Shown: in pieces, positions 694 to 20,883 of the stretch
Position numbering within the stretch: position 1 is the stretch's first letter
How the letters are laid out: every line of letters begins with the position of its first letter
DNA from: Pseudomonadota bacterium
GTDB lineage: Bacteria; Pseudomonadota; Gammaproteobacteria; Acidiferrobacterales; UBA6901
Direction: 5' to 3'
Length of the DNA: 56,595 bases
Assembly: GCA_021790335.1 (NCBI GenBank)
Contig: JAJYEE010000017.1
Location: 1-56,595 of the forward strand
Translations under genes and position numbers: made by a program
The notes under the pieces: model-generated
The model's input: only the letters and a program-made list of their open reading frames with translations
The model's database searches: none
Told to the model about the DNA's origin: nothing

Positions 694-1926
694 TTACTTG
701 GCGGCAGCGTGGCGCTCAACCCAGCGCTCCGCCTCTTCTTGCCACGTGTCGGTGCGAATGAACGGGTTGCTGCGCGGATGCGCCAGCATGGCCGGATCGG
801 GCTCGATGCCGAGACCCTCGAGGAAATTGGCAAGACCAATGCGTTCGATCATCTCGCCGCACCGCTCGTGCTCCAGGCCGTTTTCGGCCCAGAAGTCTAT
901 GATGGTGTGCGCCAGGGTGACGAGGCGGTCGAAGTCCTCGTCGCTTTCCAGCTTCATGAATGGGACGACGACAACTCCCAGGAGATCACCGATCTTCAGG
1001 GTGCGCTTGCCGCCGACCAGTATGGTTACGCCGCGATCTTTGCCCGGAGACAGGGCCTTGGTCATGACATTAATGCAATGCATGCAGCGCACGCAGTTGC
1101 GGTTGTCGATCGCGAGGGTATCGTCGGCCTTGAGCTTGAGCGACTGCGTCGGACAGCGGGTGACCACGTTGTCGATCACGTAATCGCGGCCCTTGGCGGC
1201 AACAAACTTCTTGACTTCGTCCTGCTTCACCTGGATGTCGTCGCGCCAGGTGCCGATGACCGCCATGTCAGCACGCTGAATCGAGTTCATGCAGTCGTTG
1301 GCGCATCCGGAGAACTTGAACTTGAACTTGTATGGAAGCGCGGGACGATGCAGATCGTCGGTGAAGTCGTTCATGACAACACGGTGCGCGCGGCCCTCAT
1401 CGAAGCAGGAGTGCTCGCAACGCGCATGCCCGACACAGGACATGGAGGTGCGCACCGAGGGTCCAGCTCCGCCCATGTCGAATCCGAGTTCGTTCATCTC
1501 GTCGAATGCGACCTGGACTTTGTCGGTGGAGCATCCCTGAAACATGATGTCGCCGCTCTGGCCGTGCAGTGCAATCAGCCCGGAACCGTGTTTCTCCCAG
1601 ATGTCACAGAATTTGCGCAGGATCGCGGTATCGTAGTGCATGCCTGGCGAAGGCATGATACGGATCGTATGGAACTCCGCCGACGCCGGAAATTTGTCAG
1701 CCACTTCGGAAAAACGCGGAATGACTCCCCCTCCGTAGCCGATGACACTCGCCGTACCACCCTTCCAGTACCCCTTGCGCGTTTCGTAGGAGTGTTCCAG
1801 CTGTCCCAGCAGGTCGACCATCATGTCCTTGTCCTTGGCGAGCCGCTTGAGGCCGGAAACAAAGCTCGGCCACGGACCGGTCTCCAGTTGGTCGATCATC
1901 GGTGTTGCAGACATCTTCTTTGTCAC
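694..1926 (-). CDS. dsrA: Dissimilatory sulfite reductase alpha subunit
   Basis: 410 residues, normal for DsrA. Sirohaem/[4Fe-4S]-binding cysteines are visible as C164-x5-C170-x3-C174 (SCVGHARCEHSC) and C208-x3-C212 (SGCANDC). The inserted ferredoxin domain has C258 and C278-x2-C281-x2-C284 (NCVRCMHC). The GTG start at 1926 is chosen because AAGGAG lies 7 nt upstream; an in-frame ATG four codons later is the alternative. It is the first gene of the dsr operon, with dsrB directly behind it. A perfect FNR/Dnr palindrome lies 135 bp upstream (2061-2074), so expression is probably raised under low oxygen or nitric oxide. Together with neighbouring haem-A oxidase and denitrification-type genes, this points to the reverse (sulfur-oxidising) form, which is an inference and not a direct reading. 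Confidence 0.97.
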   Translation of the reverse strand: MTKKMSATPMIDQLETGPWPSFVSGLKRLAKDKDMMVDLLGQLEHSYETRKGYWKGGTASVIGYGGGVIPRFSEVADKFPASAEFHTIRIMPSPGMHYDTAILRKFCDIWEKHGSGLIALHGQSGDIMFQGCSTDKVQVAFDEMNELGFDMGGAGPSVRTSMSCVGHARCEHSCFDEGRAHRVVMNDFTDDLHRPALPYKFKFKFSGCANDCMNSIQRADMAVIGTWRDDIQVKQDEVKKFVAAKGRDYVIDNVVTRCPTQSLKLKADDTLAIDNRNCVRCMHCINVMTKALSPGKDRGVTILVGGKRTLKIGDLLGVVVVPFMKLESDEDFDRLVTLAHTIIDFWAENGLEHERCGEMIERIGLANFLEGLGIEPDPAMLAHPRSNPFIRTDTWQEEAERWVERHAAAK

Positions 1927-2635
1927 GACGGTTCTCCTTACGTTGATCGGCTACAGCCAGGCGCGTCCTGCAACAGGACAGCGGCGCTCTTACGGCCGTG
2001 TCGGCTGGGCAATGGCAATGCGTCGGGTGCAGACGGTAACCAACCGGCCAGAACGAGTGATTGATCCAGATCAAGTGAACCGCAGAACGTCGGGAACCAT
2101 TGGGATAGCTACAAACATCTCCTTTGGGATAGGAAAAAAACCATGCCGGTGCGCGGAACTGGCCACAAGATGCTGTTTATCAATCGAAAAATTGACGATG
2201 CCGGGCTTACGTGGGCATTATCTTAGAGCACCCGCGTCCGAACCTGCTTTGGACACGACCCCACCGCATCCGCTTATGGCCGTTGTCCGTGGGTCCAACG
2301 TACCTTCCGTGTGGGTTCTGACCAGTCAAAACCAGATCAGGCGAACTCCGCCGCGGTAAGGGCTACATCGTCGAGGCAACCGGCCCGCCCGGGAAATTGG
2401 ATCTGTCTCCGGGGCACGACTGACCAGGAGGTTCGCGACTGGATTTACGAATTCGGATCCCCGCGGGAAAGACAAGGCGATCCGGCCGGGCCCACCTGGT
2501 AGCCGTACTCACGCCGACCATGGCGGCAAACGGCTGCGAACTTCCCCCTGCGCGACCCGCTCAAACCCTAGGTCGTCGCCGTTCGGCGATGATGTAAAGT
2601 AGGCGCAGACCGAACAGACCGAGGAGAATCCGCAT
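1927..2635. other. Intergenic region between dsrA and the SCO gene
   Basis: About 700 bp lie between the divergently transcribed dsrA and SCO genes. Apart from the FNR/Dnr-type palindrome at 2061-2074 and the SCO ribosome site (GAGGAGA just before 2636), I recognise no gene, RNA or repeat. The open frames here look like random GC-rich frames. Confidence 0.6.
2061..2074 (-). promoter_or_regulatory. FNR/Dnr box upstream of dsrA
   Basis: TTGATCCAGATCAA is a perfect inverted repeat and matches the FNR/Anr/Dnr consensus TTGAT-N4-ATCAA. Reading toward dsrA, a weak -10 (TACCGT, 2038 to 2033) starts 22 nt after the box, as in class II activated promoters. This predicts a start near 2026 and a leader of about 100 nt. 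The opposite orientation has no matching -10. The Dnr-like regulator at 20170 is a candidate binder. Confidence 0.75.
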
Positions 2636-4886: not shown

Positions 4887-4900
4887 TTGATTTATGTCAA
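4887..4900 (+). promoter_or_regulatory. FNR/Dnr box upstream of nnrS
   Basis: TTGATTTATGTCAA matches TTGAT-N4-(A/G)TCAA with one deviation from symmetry. The hexamer GATAAG (4923-4928, four of six -10 matches) begins exactly 22 nt after the box. This places the predicted transcription start at about 4935, just upstream of the nnrS ATG at 4957. Confidence 0.8.
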
Positions 4901-4956
4901 GGACAGCAGCGCGGGCGATGAGGATAAGTGGATACCCGCATCAGGAACCGGAAACC

Positions 4957-6210
4957 ATGACCACGTCCCGCGAAAGTGCCGCCGCGGCGCGCCCCTCAGG
5001 TATCTGGCACGCGTTCAGTGCCGCTCCTCATCGCATGTTCTTTCTGGCGGGTGCCGTACAGATCGTCCTGATTATGGGCTGGTGGGCAGTCACGCTGTCG
5101 GGCCTCTATGGAATCCTTCCTGCCGCCGGGACACGCCTGAATCCGGTCTGGGCGCATGCGTTCCTCATGATTTACGGCCTGTTCCCGTTCTTCATCTTCG
5201 GCTTTCTTGCCACAGTCTACCCCCGCTGGATGAGTACTCCTGCGCTCTCACGCCGTACCTATGTCAGCGCATCCCTGCTCATGGCGGGCGGCGGGGCGCT
5301 GTTTTGCCTGGGACTGTATGCCGGAACCGGGATTGTTGCGCTTGCCACCACCGTATTCCTGTGCGGCTGGCTGACCATCCTCATCGCACTGCTGCGGGTC
5401 TACCACGCGGCGGGACAGCACGGTCCGCACGAACGCATACTCAATCTGGCGCTTGCCGCGGGGGCCGTGGGCATCGCATGCTTTACAGTTGCCGCGATCA
5501 GCGGGAACCCGACGTGGTTTGCCGCCGCGCGCGAGTTCGGACTGTGGATGTTTCTCGTTCCCGTGGTGTTCGGCGTCAGCCACCGTATGATCCCGTTTTT
5601 CGGCAACAGCGTGCTGGAAAACTACCGCATCGTGCGTCCCGCATGGAGCCTGCCACTGGTGCTGGTGTGCGCAACCGGTCACGCCGTGCTTGTGCTCTCG
5701 GGCGAGCGGCGCTGGCTTTTCGTGTGCGACCTGCCGCTGATGCTGACCGGCCTCTACCATTCGGTCGCCTGGGGATTTCGCCGCAGTTTCCACGATCGCC
5801 TGCTGGCCATGCTTCATATCGCGTTTTCCTGGTTCACGCTGGCGACGGCGCTGTATGGCCTTCAGAGCCTGGTCCTGCTCGGCAGCGGACGGTTGCTGTT
5901 CGGCCGCGCACCGCTGCACGCCCTGGGTATCGGCTTTGTGCTGGGCATGGTGGTGGCCATGGTCTCGCGAGTGAGCCTCGGGCACTCGGGCAGGGCGCTG
6001 GTCGCCGATCACCTCACGTGGATCACGTTACTCGGCATCAACGTAACTGCGCTGCTGCGCCTGGCTGCGGCGCTGACCGGGCCGTTTTTTGTCTACGCTT
6101 ATCTTTTCAATCTCGCCGCCGCCGGAGCGTGGCTTGTCTGTCTTACGCCCTGGGTCTGGCGCTATGCGCCGATGTATCTGCGGCCACGCATCGATGGTCG
6201 CGCCGGATGA
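4957..6210 (+). CDS. nnrS: NnrS family haem- and copper-binding membrane protein
   Basis: 417 residues and about twelve membrane segments. NnrS proteins are linked to nitric oxide tolerance and are regulated by NO-responsive FNR-family factors. The N-terminal half has the family pattern ending in YPRWMS, the middle has VSHRMIPFFG, and the C-terminal half has HALGIGFVLGMVVAMVSRV followed by SLGHSGR, which is diagnostic. An open frame begins 21 codons earlier, but the ATG at 4957 is preferred: the upstream codons lie on top of the promoter. The next gene, a hemerythrin, has its own Dnr box at 6227, so nnrS is likely transcribed alone or with readthrough. Confidence 0.9.
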   Translation: MTTSRESAAAARPSGIWHAFSAAPHRMFFLAGAVQIVLIMGWWAVTLSGLYGILPAAGTRLNPVWAHAFLMIYGLFPFFIFGFLATVYPRWMSTPALSRRTYVSASLLMAGGGALFCLGLYAGTGIVALATTVFLCGWLTILIALLRVYHAAGQHGPHERILNLALAAGAVGIACFTVAAISGNPTWFAAAREFGLWMFLVPVVFGVSHRMIPFFGNSVLENYRIVRPAWSLPLVLVCATGHAVLVLSGERRWLFVCDLPLMLTGLYHSVAWGFRRSFHDRLLAMLHIAFSWFTLATALYGLQSLVLLGSGRLLFGRAPLHALGIGFVLGMVVAMVSRVSLGHSGRALVADHLTWITLLGINVTALLRLAAALTGPFFVYAYLFNLAAAGAWLVCLTPWVWRYAPMYLRPRIDGRAG

Positions 6211-6226: not shown

Positions 6227-6240
6227 TTGACATTGATCAA
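6227..6240 (+). promoter_or_regulatory. FNR/Dnr box upstream of the hemerythrin operon
   Basis: TTGACATTGATCAA fits TTGA(T/C)-N4-ATCAA. At the class II position 22 nt downstream lies CAAAGT (6263-6268), only three of six matches to a -10. The site lies between the nnrS stop codon and the ATG at 6303 and is not within a coding frame. Confidence 0.7.
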
Positions 6241-6302: not shown

Positions 6303-6749
6303 ATGGCGGATTCCATATATTCCGAACTCAGCACCGACCACCGGCGCTGCGATGATTTGCTCAGCGCAGCTGAAAACCAGGTTCACCGCGGCGACTGGCT
6401 TAGCGCAGGAAAAAGCCTTCAGGATTTTCTGAGTGCCACGCTTCGGCATTTCGAAGTTGAGGAGACCATTTTGTTTCCTGCGTTCGAAATGCGGACCGGA
6501 CAGGCCATGGGGCCGACACGCATCATGCGCACGGAGCACGAGCAGATGCGCGCCTTGTTCGAGGATCTGCAGCAGGACATCGGGTCACAGGATCGTGGAC
6601 ATTATCTGGGGTCATCGGAAACCCTGCTAACGCTGCTGCAGCAGCACAACCTCAAGGAAGAACAGGTTCTGTACCCGCTGGCCGACCGCGCACTCGCCAA
6701 CGAAGTTCTTGAGCTCCTGCAGCGCATGCGTGCCGACCGGCCAGCCTAG
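6303..6749 (+). CDS. Hemerythrin HHE-domain protein
   Basis: 148 residues, a single four-helix hemerythrin bundle. Di-iron ligand candidates are H13 (TDHRR), the HFEVEETILFPAFE segment, TEHEQM and QHNLKEEQVLYPL, the expected H...H-x3-E...H...H-x3-E arrangement. Such proteins bind oxygen or nitric oxide, or protect and repair iron-sulfur clusters. It is the first gene of a tight plus-strand operon (next start 6 bp after the stop) under a Dnr box, which favours an NO-related task. It has no signal peptide and is cytoplasmic. Confidence 0.9.
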   Translation: MADSIYSELSTDHRRCDDLLSAAENQVHRGDWLSAGKSLQDFLSATLRHFEVEETILFPAFEMRTGQAMGPTRIMRTEHEQMRALFEDLQQDIGSQDRGHYLGSSETLLTLLQQHNLKEEQVLYPLADRALANEVLELLQRMRADRPA

Positions 6750-9605: not shown

Positions 9606-10019
9606 CTATTCCGTGATGTTACCGCAGGCAACGTAGACGCCCAATTCCTTGGCGCTCTTGTGTGCGTTGATGGCGTATTTGCCCTTGAGCAATGTTTCGA
9701 GCGAAACCGGAACTACGGTCACTGACCGCCCGTTCTTCAGGAAATTGAGCCCCCACTTCGGCGTCGGGTTGATGTGGCCACACACACCCTCATGGATATG
9801 AATGGGTTCAACTGCCCCCCTCGGCTCGCCCCGGAGCATTACAACAACCCGCGTCTTGTCCCCTTCCGCCGTAAGCACAGCCTTACCGCTCTCGTGGACG
9901 TAGAAACCGGGCTCGGGATGGATCATCACGGTGACACTGCGATGACCCGCCGAAAGTGCCGCGCCGACCGAAGCTGCCGCCAGTCCTGCAAAAAACGTTA
10001 CCATAATAAATTTGCGCAT
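9606..10019 (-). CDS. Small secreted CHRD/SOD-like protein
   Basis: 137 residues. The N-terminus is a clean signal peptide (MRKFIMVTFFAGLAAASVGA, probable cleavage after ALSA), so the protein is periplasmic or exported. The mature part has HIHEGVCGH and ends with YVACGNI, resembling CHRD domains and the Cu/Zn superoxide dismutase fold, including a histidine-rich HIH turn and two cysteines that could form a disulfide. The ATG at 10019 is chosen because AAAGGGG lies 8 nt upstream; a longer frame to 10076 lacks such a site. It is monocistronic with its own terminator. The function is unknown; metal binding is only suggested. Confidence 0.75.
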   Translation of the reverse strand: MRKFIMVTFFAGLAAASVGAALSAGHRSVTVMIHPEPGFYVHESGKAVLTAEGDKTRVVVMLRGEPRGAVEPIHIHEGVCGHINPTPKWGLNFLKNGRSVTVVPVSLETLLKGKYAINAHKSAKELGVYVACGNITE

Positions 10020-10543: not shown

Positions 10544-11872
10544 CTACCACGCGAACCATCCGTACAGGTACGTGTAATTATCGTTCGAGACGCTGGTCGT
10601 TGATCCGTAGTACTTGGTGTAGCCGCGGTACTGGAGTCCCAGCTTGGTGTTCTCCCAAGGCAGGTAATCCACCTCGGCGGTCCAGTAAGCCGTATCTGGA
10701 CTGTTCGCCGCGCTGTTGGTCCACACGGGATAGAGGACTTTGTCGGTGGATCCGCTCCAGTTGTCGTAGCCCAGCGCCACTTCATACATGCGCTGGAAGT
10801 GCATCTCCGCATCGAGACGGGCATCGTTCAGATGATCGCTCGACTTGGCCGCCAAGGCGGTCCCGGTACCGTAATTCTGGCTCTCATGCAGGTACTGGGC
10901 GTGCAGCGCCAGCAGATTGGCTCCGAGCGGCATCTCGTACTGCGTATCGACGCCAACATCCGTGTACTTGTTTTCGACCCCAGGGGATTCCAGGAACTTG
11001 GTCTGCATCCCGAAGGTGCCGATCTCCCAATACGCATTGTCGAACTGGTGCTGCCACGCCAGCCGCCAGTAGGGCGCAAGGCCATTTATAGTGGCACCGT
11101 TAGCGTATGTCGGTTCGGGCAGCGTCCCCTGAACGGCAGAACGATAAAAAGAGAGCCCGGCATACCATTGGTTATTGAGCAGCGTATAGGCACCGAGACC
11201 AGCGACGTTGCCGCCCAGACTGTCGAGCATGGAACCAGGCGGACCGCCGGCAGCCCCATTGACGTATTTGTCATAGGGATGCTCGGCCGAGTGGATCCAG
11301 GGGAATCCCCAGGCCGGCGTGTCGTTCCACACGTCCTCGACGGACGGATTGTTGTTCAGCGTCAAACCGTAGATTTCATCCTGGCCGCCCAGGGTGAAAT
11401 GGTTGGCGTAGCGGACATCGGTGTTGTCCCAAGTAAAGCTCGAAGCTGCATCCTTCTGCGCATAGGTGATCTGCATGAACGTACCCATGTGCGGCGAAAT
11501 CTCGCCGGCGTAGAACAGGCTCAGCTGACGCGGAAATTCGACGTTGTTGTTCTGCTTGCTCGGTGCCCTCTTACCTTCGTTCGACATTCCGACCTGCATC
11601 ATCACCGACAGCGGCGCGCCCGCATTGATCTTGAGCGCATTACCGCCAGCCGCTTCGATCTGCCGCAGTCCCGTAAGCGTATACCCGTTCAGCTTGAACA
11701 GACGCCCGAACGGCGTGAGTTCCGGGAAAATCGTGTGGCAGACTTCGCAGGCAAGACCCGTCTGGCGCGCGTAGCTCGGCACCGCGAGCGCCTCCGGCGA
11801 GGACAACGCCAGCAGGGCGAAAGCGCCCCCGCCGGCGAGGATCAAACTTCTGGACATGGAAAACTTGGACAT
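10544..11872 (-). CDS. Outer-membrane porin with N-terminal c-type haem, Cyc2-like
   Basis: 442 residues. A signal peptide (cleavage after residue 30, EALA/VPS) is followed by SYARQTGLACEVCHTIFPEL and TPFGRLFKLNGY, with the haem motif C42-E-V-C45-H46. The rest alternates short polar and aromatic strands (for example YWRLAWQHQ, YWEIGTFGM, KLGLQYRGYTKYY) and ends in YGWFAW, a terminal aromatic typical of outer-membrane beta-barrels. The single N-terminal CxxCH followed by P-x-L-T-x-F-G-R and a barrel is the design of Cyc2 iron oxidases and relatives. Iron oxidation is not proven, because the family also occurs in non-iron bacteria. A Dnr box lies 162 bp upstream. Confidence 0.8.
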   Translation of the reverse strand: MSKFSMSRSLILAGGGAFALLALSSPEALAVPSYARQTGLACEVCHTIFPELTPFGRLFKLNGYTLTGLRQIEAAGGNALKINAGAPLSVMMQVGMSNEGKRAPSKQNNNVEFPRQLSLFYAGEISPHMGTFMQITYAQKDAASSFTWDNTDVRYANHFTLGGQDEIYGLTLNNNPSVEDVWNDTPAWGFPWIHSAEHPYDKYVNGAAGGPPGSMLDSLGGNVAGLGAYTLLNNQWYAGLSFYRSAVQGTLPEPTYANGATINGLAPYWRLAWQHQFDNAYWEIGTFGMQTKFLESPGVENKYTDVGVDTQYEMPLGANLLALHAQYLHESQNYGTGTALAAKSSDHLNDARLDAEMHFQRMYEVALGYDNWSGSTDKVLYPVWTNSAANSPDTAYWTAEVDYLPWENTKLGLQYRGYTKYYGSTTSVSNDNYTYLYGWFAW

Positions 11873-12350
11873 TGTTAATCCCCCTTGCTTCGTTGACAGA
11901 ATCTGACCGACGACGTCGCACCCACTCCCTCACCCGCGACGCACATCCCAAATCCGGAAATTTCTTTAGGCCGTTCGCCACATAGCGGCAGCCACTTTGC
12001 CGGCGACAATACATGACCCAAAAAGTTCAGGCTTTGACCCACGTCAACATTGCCATGGGTATTTCACTGCAAATTCCGGGTCTATACCGGTCTGCCCGGA
12101 ACACTTAAAATTAGACCAACAGGAAGGTTGTACGCAGGCGGACAGACCGATACACGCATTCCCGCTTTCAGGTCCATTGGCAATCGCCGACACGCCGCAT
12201 GCCGGGAACTCGATCGGGAATCCGGAAACTGCTCAGTCACGACAGCTGTTGACAGCGATTGCCAAACAGCCTGCGGAGACCTGCCGCCTTGTGCGGCCGC
12301 CCCCCGGACAGTCGTCCGGTCGGCTCGCAAGGACATTCCGGTATGACGCG
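11873..12350. other. Promoter region of the Cyc2-like gene and spacer
   Basis: This 480-bp spacer lies between two minus-strand genes. It holds the Dnr box at 12034-12047 and the leader of the Cyc2-like gene. I recognise no gene in it. Confidence 0.5.
12034..12047 (-). promoter_or_regulatory. FNR/Dnr box upstream of the Cyc2-like gene
   Basis: TTGACCCACGTCAA is a symmetric TTGAC-N4-GTCAA palindrome. Toward the Cyc2-like gene, TATTGT (12011 to 12006, four of six -10 matches) begins exactly 22 nt after the box. This predicts transcription from about 11999 with a leader near 127 nt. Confidence 0.75.
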
Positions 12351-12842
12351 CTAACGACAGGCGCCGATACGCTGTCCGCGCACTTGCTCCGTTACGGACA
12401 TCTGACCGCGACGCGGCACGTCGATACGCATCGCGATTGCACCCTCGTACCGGTCGCGCCCATAGGTCAACCAGGCATGGCCGCTCGCTGCGGGGCGACC
12501 CCAGCATTGCAGGTCCCAGCTGACACGGCCGTGGGAACGATGGGCATCCATGAACCGACAGGGGCTTGCCGGATTGATCTGGAGCATATCGCGCCCGTAC
12601 TGTACGTCCCGGGACGTAAAACACTGTCTGTGCGTGAATGGCCGTACGCCTGCGCGCATGCCGGGAACGCTCATAGTCACGATGATCTGCCACAGGCCCT
12701 GACGGATCAGATTCGAGGATGCCTGAGCCGCGGCGCTGCCTGCTGCAGACAGAAAAAACACCAGCACCAGATTTGCCATCTTCAGCAGCGCGGGTCGCCG
12801 GCAGGAACAGCATGGAGCATCAAATTCGATGTCGTGCCGCAT
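12351..12842 (-). CDS. DUF3617 family exported protein
   Basis: About 163 residues from the ATG at 12842. A hydrophobic export signal (MANLVLVFFLSAAGSAAAQA) begins at an internal ATG (12779), which is an alternative start. The mature part has QGLWQIIVTM near its start, then RQCFTSRDV, CRFMDAH and WDLQCWG, and ends GACR. This is the DUF3617 pattern of small periplasmic proteins with paired cysteines. The function of the family is unknown. GAGGA lies 11 nt before the ATG at 12842. Confidence 0.7.
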   Translation of the reverse strand: MRHDIEFDAPCCSCRRPALLKMANLVLVFFLSAAGSAAAQASSNLIRQGLWQIIVTMSVPGMRAGVRPFTHRQCFTSRDVQYGRDMLQINPASPCRFMDAHRSHGRVSWDLQCWGRPAASGHAWLTYGRDRYEGAIAMRIDVPRRGQMSVTEQVRGQRIGACR

Positions 12843-18484: not shown

Positions 18485-19195
18485 CTATCCTAAGAAGCGC
18501 AGCACACTGTCTTCCACCGGAGTCGAGCCGTTCACTTTCGGCCACAGCACCGGCCAGAGCCTCAGGCAGAACAGCAGCAGCGCAATCCAGGCGAGGCCAC
18601 CGCCGCTGAGCGCCAGCCAGCGCCAGCCGGAAACGAACCCCGTGACCAGCATCAACAATCCGGCGTGGGCGAGGCCGAGCTGCCACCACACGAGCGAGCC
18701 GCCACGAATGGGATTGCCGGTAAACCGCGGCAGCATGTGCTCGCCGAGCGCATACACCATGAACGTCATGAACCCGAGCGTGAACAGATGCAGGGGTGCA
18801 ACACGCGCGAAACCGGAAAGGAAAAACGAACCATTGACGGCAAGAAATCCCCCGGCAGCAAAAAGATAGGCCAGCGAGGAATGCACGGCAACGCGACCGC
18901 TGAACCCCATGCTGAGTCCGACATGGTGCGCCTGCGTGGCAGCCCTGGGCGGCGCGGCGCCGACGATGGCAAGTGCCTGCTGCCTGCTCTGCACGCCGAT
19001 CGCCACCAGCTTGCCGTCGACCACCAGCGCCGGGATGGTCTTCAGCCGCAACCGGCTGACCAGTTCCTTGCCCTCGGACTGGCCCATGTCCACGACGTCA
19101 AACTCGAACTCGCGCTCTTCCGACACTTCGCGCCAGACTTTTTCAGCCTGGTGGCAGGAGGCACACCAATCCGAAACCAGGAGCTGGACTTTCAT
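18485..19195 (-). CDS. Thioredoxin domain fused to NnrS-like membrane half
   Basis: 236 residues. Residues 1-80 form a cytoplasmic thioredoxin/glutaredoxin-like domain with the redox pair C11-A-S-C14 and a cis-proline at P55 (TIPAL). From about residue 104 four hydrophobic helices follow, with HLFTLGFMTFMVYALGEHML followed by PRFTGNP, including H136 and H153. The same pattern is found in the 19680 protein and, less clearly, in NnrS. CASCH reads like a c-type haem site, but there is no signal peptide, so a thioredoxin is preferred. GGAGAG precedes the ATG. A membrane-tethered redox protein near NO-response genes; the substrate is unknown. Confidence 0.8.
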   Translation of the reverse strand: MKVQLLVSDWCASCHQAEKVWREVSEEREFEFDVVDMGQSEGKELVSRLRLKTIPALVVDGKLVAIGVQSRQQALAIVGAAPPRAATQAHHVGLSMGFSGRVAVHSSLAYLFAAGGFLAVNGSFFLSGFARVAPLHLFTLGFMTFMVYALGEHMLPRFTGNPIRGGSLVWWQLGLAHAGLLMLVTGFVSGWRWLALSGGGLAWIALLLFCLRLWPVLWPKVNGSTPVEDSVLRFLG

Positions 19196-19229: not shown

Positions 19230-19676
19230 CTAATCCTGGCAGCGCATGCACTGGACGTCGTACCGGTCTATCCATTTATGCAACGCCGCGATCGCTGTCG
19301 CTCCCGTGTGCAGGCGCGCCATTGCCTTTGCCGGGTCATCCGGGCGCATGACCACGAGCCAGGCGTCACCATAGGGAGAGACATTGACCAGCCCGGGCTT
19401 GGCCGCAACCTGATCGTTGATGCGCAGGATCTCGCCGTCAAAGGGGGCCGGTATGCCTCCGGCCCACTTGCCGGATTCGAGCCGCGCCACTGGCTTGCCG
19501 CTGGCCCGATGCGCTCCCGGTTTCTTGAAAAATATGTACTGCACGCGACCGGCCATGGTCTGGGCTGCATCCGTGATGCCGAGCGTGTAGGTGCCGTCGG
19601 CTTCCGGACGAACCCACACGTAATCGAGGTCATAGTACAGGTCTTCCGGCAATTCGCAGCCTCGGTATTCAGACAT
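19230..19676 (-). CDS. GcvH-like lipoyl carrier protein with CxxC tail
   Basis: 148 residues. The core aligns with glycine cleavage H proteins: LESGKWAGGIPAPFDGEI places the lipoyl-lysine at K70 (as in ESVKA of true GcvH), followed by LVNVSPYGDAWLVV. There are no gcvT or gcvP genes here, and the end carries an extra CMRC pair (C143, C146), so this is not the ordinary glycine cleavage carrier. It begins 3 nt after the stop of the mini NnrS-like gene, and the thioredoxin fusion follows 34 nt later. A lipoyl dithiol that the thioredoxin could reduce is the obvious inference; lipoate-binding proteins of sulfur oxidation (LbpA) are an alternative comparison. Confidence 0.8.
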   Translation of the reverse strand: MSEYRGCELPEDLYYDLDYVWVRPEADGTYTLGITDAAQTMAGRVQYIFFKKPGAHRASGKPVARLESGKWAGGIPAPFDGEILRINDQVAAKPGLVNVSPYGDAWLVVMRPDDPAKAMARLHTGATAIAALHKWIDRYDVQCMRCQD

Positions 19677-20125: not shown

Positions 20126-20139
20126 TTGACTTCGGTCAA
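20126..20139 (-). promoter_or_regulatory. FNR/Dnr box between dnr and the NnrS-like operon
   Basis: TTGACTTCGGTCAA. On the minus strand TATTCT (20103 to 20098, four of six matches) begins exactly 22 nt after the box, so transcription of the 20075 gene would start at about 20091, 16 nt before its ATG. On the plus strand the same box lies 31 nt from the dnr ATG, too close for class II activation, and could repress or autoregulate dnr. Confidence 0.75.
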
Positions 20140-20169: not shown

Positions 20170-20883
20170 ATGAAAGACATGGTTAAACAATTCGACGAAC
20201 TGCGCCGTGCGCATCTGTTTGCCCAGGCTGACGACGCGCAGCTTGCGACGCTCGCACGCGTCATGCAGGAGGTCGAACTTGCGCCCGGGGATACGCTGTT
20301 TACCCACGGCCAGGCGGCCGAGCGCTTTTTCTTCGTGCGCTCGGGACGGGTCAAATTGTTCCGAATATCACCCGAAGGACAGGAGAAGATCATCGAAGTC
20401 GTCGAACCCGGACAGACCTTCGCGGAGGCGGTAATGTTCATGGGCAGCCAGGGACACTATCCGGTGAACGCCCAGGCAATGACCGACAGCCGGCTGTACG
20501 CGTTTGACCAGAAGCAGTTTCTCAAGGTCCTATCCGAGTCCTCGGAGATCTGCCTCGGCATGCTGTCAGCAATGAGCCGCCGGCTGCACATGCTCATCAA
20601 CCAGATCGACGGGCTGACTCTGCAGAATGCGACTTACCGCCTGGTGATGTATCTGCTCGAGCATGCGCCCCAGGGTCTGGCCGAAACCACGGAAATCGAG
20701 CTCACGACCCCCAAAGGGGTGATCGCCTCGCAACTGGCTATCCAGCCGGAGACTTTTTCGCGCATCCTTGCCAAACTGAAGCGGCTCGGCCTCATAGAGG
20801 TGAACGGAAACCACATTACGCTGCGCAACCTGCGCGGGTTGCGCAGCTTGGCCTATGTGCCGGTTCCCGACGATACTGCATGA
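20170..20883 (+). CDS. dnr: Dnr-type Crp/Fnr family transcription regulator
   Basis: 237 residues: cyclic-nucleotide-like beta-roll, long dimer helix, C-terminal winged helix. There is no N-terminal cysteine cluster (one cysteine in all), unlike FNR/Anr, so it probably senses nitric oxide through haem as Dnr does. The recognition helix QPETFSRILAKLK has the E-x-x-S-R pattern that reads TTGAT half-sites, which fits the five boxes in this window. The ATG at 20170 is chosen; ATG at 20179 is possible, since neither has a clear ribosome site. It heads an operon with moaB and moaC and is divergent from the NnrS-like operon. Confidence 0.88.
   Translation: MKDMVKQFDELRRAHLFAQADDAQLATLARVMQEVELAPGDTLFTHGQAAERFFFVRSGRVKLFRISPEGQEKIIEVVEPGQTFAEAVMFMGSQGHYPVNAQAMTDSRLYAFDQKQFLKVLSESSEICLGMLSAMSRRLHMLINQIDGLTLQNATYRLVMYLLEHAPQGLAETTEIELTTPKGVIASQLAIQPETFSRILAKLKRLGLIEVNGNHITLRNLRGLRSLAYVPVPDDTA

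Follow-up and report, generated by a model that had tools for sequence, protein, structure and literature searches.

A predicted Cyc2-family porin-cytochrome gene behind an Fnr/Dnr box in a gammaproteobacterial sulfur oxidiser

Introduction

The presence of cyc2 in a genome is read as a sign of Fe(II) oxidation, and both its induction and the direction in which its product passes electrons are poorly known beyond a few isolates. Does a cyc2-like gene that lies behind an Fnr/Dnr-type regulatory site belong to this family, is the site more than a chance occurrence, and what do the two together say about the use of the protein? We addressed these questions in a 56,595-nucleotide stretch of DNA (positions 1 to 56,595 of contig JAJYEE010000017.1, assembly GCA_021790335.1; hereafter the window) from a bacterium of the order Acidiferrobacterales. 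A preliminary description of this DNA had proposed an outer-membrane Fe(II) oxidase that would take up extracellular electrons under low oxygen or nitrate in a sulfur oxidiser.

Results

Architecture of the porin-cytochrome

10544..11872, minus strand: cyc2-like gene for a 442-aa fusion of a mono-haem cytochrome and a porin
11783..11872, minus strand: likely signal peptide, residues 1-30, ending in ALA (judged by eye and from helix 8-23 in the AlphaFold2 model)
11717..11785, minus strand: Cyc2-type haem context AVPSYARQTGLACEVCHTIFPEL, residues 30-52 (read from the protein sequence)
10550..11611, minus strand: predicted 16-stranded outer-membrane barrel, residues 88-441 (AlphaFold2 model)
9606..10019, minus strand: small protein without a family match, apparently secreted; lies downstream of cyc2 and is kept beside it in three related loci (L111, L112, L032)

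The ATG of the cyc2-like gene lies at 11872, and the plus strand across 10544-12047, the range covered by the preliminary description, contains 5 stops. Inspection by eye of the N-terminus revealed positive charges at the start, a hydrophobic run and then ALA ahead of the motif; the likely signal peptide is followed by AVPSYARQTGLACEVCHTIFPELTPFGRLFKLNGY. The single C..CH in the whole ORF is CEVCH (residues 42-46, at 11735-11749), which is flanked by AVPSYARQTG ahead and PELTPFGR behind in the haem-site context AVPSYARQTGLACEVCHTIFPELTPFGR, and the mono-haem N-terminus with SYARQTG and P-x-L-T-x-F-G-R is present just as it had been described. Residues R36, Q37, T38, C42, C45, H46, P50 and L52 are invariant across a 50-row alignment of relatives, and the protein ends in GWFAW, with Trp as the last residue. 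Neither Pfam nor NCBIfam assigned a family to the protein, PDB sequence searches with it gave chance matches only, and no second cyc2 copy was detectable in its own genome with this protein as the query.

PMC8406198 defines Cyc2 as a protein of at least 365 aa with a signal peptide, one CXXCH, AXPXFAR[Q/K][T/Y] upstream of it, PXL 4 residues downstream and a porin of 16 strands similar to OprO/OprP. The window's protein has one CXXCH, carries PXL 4 residues past it (CEVCH-TIF-PEL) and, with its 442 aa, exceeds the minimum length. Upstream, AVPSYARQT matches the motif at 6 of the 7 specified positions, with Y in place of F; a 67% identical relative (L004) reads AVPSFARQT. The AlphaFold2 model, built from the 50-row alignment (mean pLDDT 82.1, pTM 0.81), contains 16 strands of at least 9 residues from residue 88 onward, the strand number of the defining porin. 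The top rows of a structure comparison with this model included OprP (2o4v, Z 22.4) and OprO (4rjx, Z 22.3; 4rjw, Z 22.2), scores that are tied with those of other 16-strand porins, and a porin fold in common is no proof of function. Judged by its sequence and modelled fold, the protein is a Cyc2-family porin-cytochrome that fits the definition in everything except one letter (Y for F), its signal peptide being a likely one. The Cyc2-type architecture that had been foreseen, a haem domain joined to a barrel with an aromatic end, agrees with the sequence, the OprP/OprO matches and the barrel prediction that the preliminary description had suggested as a check.

Around the gene, no haem-protein ORF of more than 90 aa was found within 4 kb of cyc2, and hence no cyc1 adjoins it. 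We do not claim an operon of cyc2 with the small protein at 9606-10019, for which no family was found and which is separated from cyc2 by about 0.5 kb in the window. An ORF upstream of cyc2 (12082-12813), 68% alike in a congener and with no family over the cut-off, was read as non-coding.

An Fnr/Dnr box precedes the gene

12034..12047, no strand: Fnr/Dnr palindrome TTGACCCACGTCAA upstream of cyc2, a perfect TTGAY-N4-RTCAA, 162 bp before the ATG
2061..2074, no strand: Fnr/Dnr box upstream of dsrA (pattern scan)
694..1926, minus strand: dsrA, dissimilatory sulfite reductase alpha (TIGR02064, 572 bits, cut-off 392.85)
4894..6210, plus strand: NnrS-family gene (PF05940), box at 4887-4900
6303..6749, plus strand: hemerythrin-domain protein (PF01814), box at 6227-6240
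20126..20139, no strand: Fnr/Dnr box TTGACTTCGGTCAA just before the regulator's inferred start (pattern scan)
20170..20883, plus strand: DNR-type Crp/Fnr regulator without N-terminal cysteines, start inferred (Pfam cNMP_binding and HTH_Crp_2)

The FNR/Dnr site that had been noted in front of the gene was located within 10544-12047. Perfect TTGAY-N4-RTCAA sites were observed 5 times in the window against 0.13 expected, a number reached by 0 of 100 shuffles, and the genome of 3.08 Mb has 39 perfect sites compared with 2 for a reversed-pattern control. Because of these excesses in window and genome, the cyc2 box is not due to chance. It is also kept in congeners: G002 has the identical 14 bp, and in G004 the site reads TTGATTTGCGTCAA with the same AGCCTG after it; the rest of the region has partly diverged. 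The box at 4887-4900 overlaps the first listed ATG of the NnrS-family gene, and the true start of that gene is therefore probably further in.

As expected of an Fnr/Dnr regulon, the palindromic site upstream of cyc2 is accompanied by candidate cognate regulators, one DNR-type and two Fe-S-type Fnr genes. The best solved relative of the window's regulator is DNR (3dkw, E 3e-45), and the two others, encoded elsewhere in the genome (L222 and L225), carry the pattern C..C.....C, which we take to be the mark of an Fe-S-type Fnr both here and in the fnr neighbours of cyc2 described below. From these sequences, the reader of the cyc2 box may be Fnr or DNR. On the minus strand at 18485-19195 the window also encodes a thioredoxin domain fused to a segment similar to the C-terminal part of NnrS, and a GcvH-like gene lies at 19230-19676.

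Other boxes in the genome adjoin genes for coxB of an aa3 oxidase, cydA, dsrA, a relative of the NiFe-hydrogenase large subunit, the DNR gene, a DsrE-family protein, a Fur-family protein, an H+-pyrophosphatase and a cytochrome b561; some boxes fall within ORFs and may be idle. Two sulfur-oxidation genes lie behind perfect boxes, dsrA (2061-2074) and the DsrE-family gene on another contig (L179 640-653).

With NnrS, hemerythrins and the DNR gene as its neighbours, the protein could also be a porin-cytochrome of Cyc2 descent with another job, such as traffic or sensing of NO, sulfur compounds or other small molecules, and PMC8406198 states that Cyc2 may have additional roles and that many homologues are untested. 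Its haem context and 16-strand fold are nevertheless those of the tested Cyc2 proteins, and we consider this explanation distinctly unlikely.

The pairing of box and cyc2 recurs in related bacteria

Among the four congeners, G002 and G004 encode a Cyc2-like protein of 94% and 82% identity, respectively, and G001 and G003 have no cyc2 gene. Of 60 relatives, 28 gave a match at E<=0.001. Among the stretches listed by a pattern scan of named genomes, 553 of 594 encoded a relative, and the best 80 of at least 553 relatives were kept for analysis; the phyla represented among the matches listed include Pseudomonadota, Bacteroidota, Acidobacteriota, Gemmatimonadota and others. A plasmid search yielded 9 named homologues (identity about 29-36%), and we retrieved 4 of them.

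We placed the protein in a quick tree of 110 rows and in a smaller tree of 94 rows, from which 10 divergent rows (2 of them boxed) and 7 near-duplicates were dropped and to which L131 was added. Both trees contain no named cluster 1 or 3 Cyc2, and L131, from an Acidiphilium plasmid, forms a long branch. In the smaller tree, the window's protein groups with those of its congeners, L004 and L033 (100/100), with four family f4 proteins, also from this order, as next neighbours (96/84). Cyc2 proteins linked to rusticyanin, from other genomes in the order, fall into a clade of their own (100/100).

Family genes were collected with a regular expression for the N-terminus, and loci with a start that does not fit it are uncounted. 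The 136 ORFs obtained reduced to 113 distinct genes, 110 of which had at least 250 nt upstream, and the box was sought within 400 nt. A perfect box was present upstream of 18 of these 110 distinct genes; 300 rounds of shuffling gave a mean of 0.24 and never more than 2, and the reversed pattern was upstream of none. Other genes in the same loci had a perfect box in 13 of 620 cases; since the rows are related and hence not independent, the Fisher p-value of this comparison is only a guide. In the loci with a boxed cyc2, 9 of 70 other genes were boxed, some of which probably share one box with a divergent neighbour. The boxed genes comprised 12 of 47 in the window's class, 5 of 19 in named Pseudomonadota and 1 of 4 in plasmid or unplaced loci (a Caballeronia plasmid), and outside Pseudomonadota there were none (0/20 Bacteroidota, 0/14 Acidobacteriota, 0/6 others).

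The box lies 73-190 nt before the start in 15 of the 18 genes; in the remaining three (L101, L132, L206) it lies 277-364 nt upstream and may belong to a different gene. The 18 include two distant porin-cytochromes from the same order (L023, L025) that the tree places outside its core Cyc2 group, and two favourable cases are not among the 18, namely L011, which is boxed and was dropped by the length filter, and L005, with a box only beyond 400 nt. Within the window's own clade, 2 of 5 rows have no perfect box (a one-mismatch site in L004, none in L033). Mapped on the trees, the box label changes 12 times in the 110 rows and 10 times in the 94 rows, and these 10 to 12 gains or losses indicate that the box was kept or acquired several times.

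Regulator genes also occur beside cyc2. An Fe-S-type fnr gene is transcribed divergently from cyc2 in G027 (123 nt away) and G031 (64 nt away), with a box in between; L089 has an fnr gene on the same strand, 123 nt upstream of cyc2, and L189 and L205 have a Crp/Fnr gene just downstream of it. For 87 distinct genes, at least 800 nt of sequence was available on either side, and a Crp/Fnr gene was found within 600 nt of 4 of them (L041, from the G027 locus, L114, L089 and L205). G056, from another family, has cyc2 on the same 17.8-kb contig as dnr and moeA; a box precedes dnr, and another box occurs in the region ahead of cyc2. Together, these results demonstrate that the pairing of an Fnr/Dnr box with cyc2 recurs in many related bacteria.

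Haem genes adjoin cyc2 in loci of other phyla. In eight Acidobacteriota loci (L081, L084, L091, L093, L096, L098, L103, L109), the gene after cyc2 encodes a protein of 875-1010 aa with 4 or 5 CXXCH, and in five Bacteroidota loci (L059, L074, L083, L090, L108) cyc2 is followed by a mono-haem ORF and an ORF of 169-170 aa with 5 CXXCH.

Metabolic setting and direction of electron flow

The view of the organism as a sulfur oxidiser is upheld by dsrA in the window and the DsrE-family gene elsewhere in the genome. In this genome assembly (97.6% complete), narG, nirS, nirK and nosZ had no match and a NapA-like match was far under the cut-off. Three COX1-family matches exceeded the cut-off, two aa3-type and one bo3-type, none of them annotated as NorB, and cydA is present. 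Ten genomes of the order have a boxed cyc2-family gene (G000, G002, G004, G005, G010, G027, G031, G035, G039 and G054), and neither narG nor rusticyanin was found over the cut-off in any of them. The best rusticyanin match in the window's own genome reached 75.6 bits against a cut-off of 146.7 (TIGR03095); it is a 535-aa protein with a CopD domain and a rusticyanin-like C-terminal part (L218 2387-3994, minus strand). The only congener with narG over the cut-off, G003, is among those without cyc2.

These results bear on the proposal that the protein works under low oxygen or nitrate. The Fnr/Dnr site speaks for its first part, and the missing nitrate, nitrite and N2O reductase genes and the 0/10 count for narG make nitrate an unlikely partner. 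Oxidation of Fe(II) or of a cathode coupled to denitrification under Dnr would agree with a box of Dnr/Fnr type, with the DNR-type regulator and NnrS nearby, and with the nitrate-linked Cyc2 that PMC8406198 proposes for other organisms; the genome itself argues against such a coupling, as does the presence of narG in a congener devoid of cyc2, and we regard it as very improbable. Likewise, with no rusticyanin over the cut-off in the boxed genomes, the rus pathway is not the route.

Electrons might instead run the other way, so that in anoxia the protein would be an outlet for sulfur or hydrogen oxidation that delivers electrons to Fe(III), with Cyc2 as a terminal ferric reductase. Here cyc2 is boxed alongside dsrA, the DsrE-family gene and hydrogenase genes, and no nitrate, nitrite or N2O reductase that could provide an anaerobic acceptor was found in the genome. 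A review (PMC8790237) proposes Cyc2 as the final ferric reductase of A. ferrooxidans growing anaerobically on sulfur and names Acidiferrobacter thiooxydans as able to grow anaerobically with S0 and Fe(III). The A. ferrooxidans route is, however, drawn through rusticyanin, for which there is no match over the cut-off here, and oxidase genes including cydA belong to the same regulon, so that the inducing state may be low oxygen and not anoxia. We consider an outlet of this kind in the window's organism rather doubtful.

Discussion

Our results are best explained by a lone Cyc2-family conduit that would be expressed at low oxygen (or in response to NO) through Fnr/Dnr and would pass electrons from Fe(II) to an oxidase, a reading to which we assign a probability of roughly 0.6. 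An Fnr/Dnr-type regulator bound at 12034-12047 would switch cyc2 on at low oxygen or by NO. The porin would reside in the outer membrane, and its short domain, with haem presumably attached at CEVCH, would sit at the periplasmic mouth. The outside donor would most likely be dissolved Fe(II), which is most persistent at low oxygen, and electrons would travel through the one haem to a soluble carrier in the periplasm and from there to an aa3-type cytochrome oxidase of the genome. The protein may be capable of Fe(II) oxidation or of uptake from a cathode. Several observations count against this low-oxygen conduit: no haem ORF lies near cyc2 and no rusticyanin scores over the cut-off, so that a candidate periplasmic partner is lacking; a perfect box is missing in L004 and L033; the gene is missing in two of four congeners; and Y replaces F in the motif.

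Comparison with known systems separates what is familiar from what is new. The Cyc2 proteins of Mariprofundus (Cyc2 PV-1) and A. ferrooxidans share with ours one CXXCH, near-identical flanks, PXL, a length above 365 aa and a porin of OprO/OprP fold; the window's gene differs from them in Y for F, in having no cyc1, cup or rus alongside and in its Fnr/Dnr box. The rus-operon Cyc2 of Acidiferrobacter-like genomes (G023, G029 and G019, a genus label inferred from the operon described in PMC10654088) belong to the same order, with the two G029 copies 32-33% identical to the window's protein, but form the separate clade (100/100) and lie in an operon with cox genes and rusticyanin, with no box. In Rhodopseudomonas palustris TIE-1, FixK, of the Crp/Fnr family, controls another outer-membrane conduit for Fe(II) oxidation, pioABC (PMC3050613), which is a decahaem/porin system of a phototroph and not Cyc2. 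Sulfuriferula species are also sulfur oxidisers with cyc2 and grow on Fe(II); as presented in the pertinent part of PMC12285272, they differ in having cyc1 as well and a cyc2 most similar to cluster 2, and that part of the account draws no link to Fnr. A search of the open-access literature, which leaves most subscription journals outside, turned up no paper that connects cyc2 with Fnr or Dnr. The Cyc2 family, its occurrence in sulfur oxidisers and Crp/Fnr control of another iron conduit are already known, and the recurrent Fnr/Dnr wiring of cyc2 together with its lone, rus-free setting is new.

A broader proposal would be that Pseudomonadota Cyc2, repeatedly wired to Fnr/Dnr and in some cases paired with fnr, acts as an anaerobic outlet to Fe(III) in Dsr sulfur oxidisers that have neither nitrate reductase nor rusticyanin. 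We think this unlikely, but if it were true, Cyc2, generally read as a marker of Fe(II) oxidation, would mark the opposite process. The recurring pairing of cyc2 with a box or an fnr gene makes both its induction and its electron direction testable, since it predicts induction at low oxygen and names the organisms to examine.
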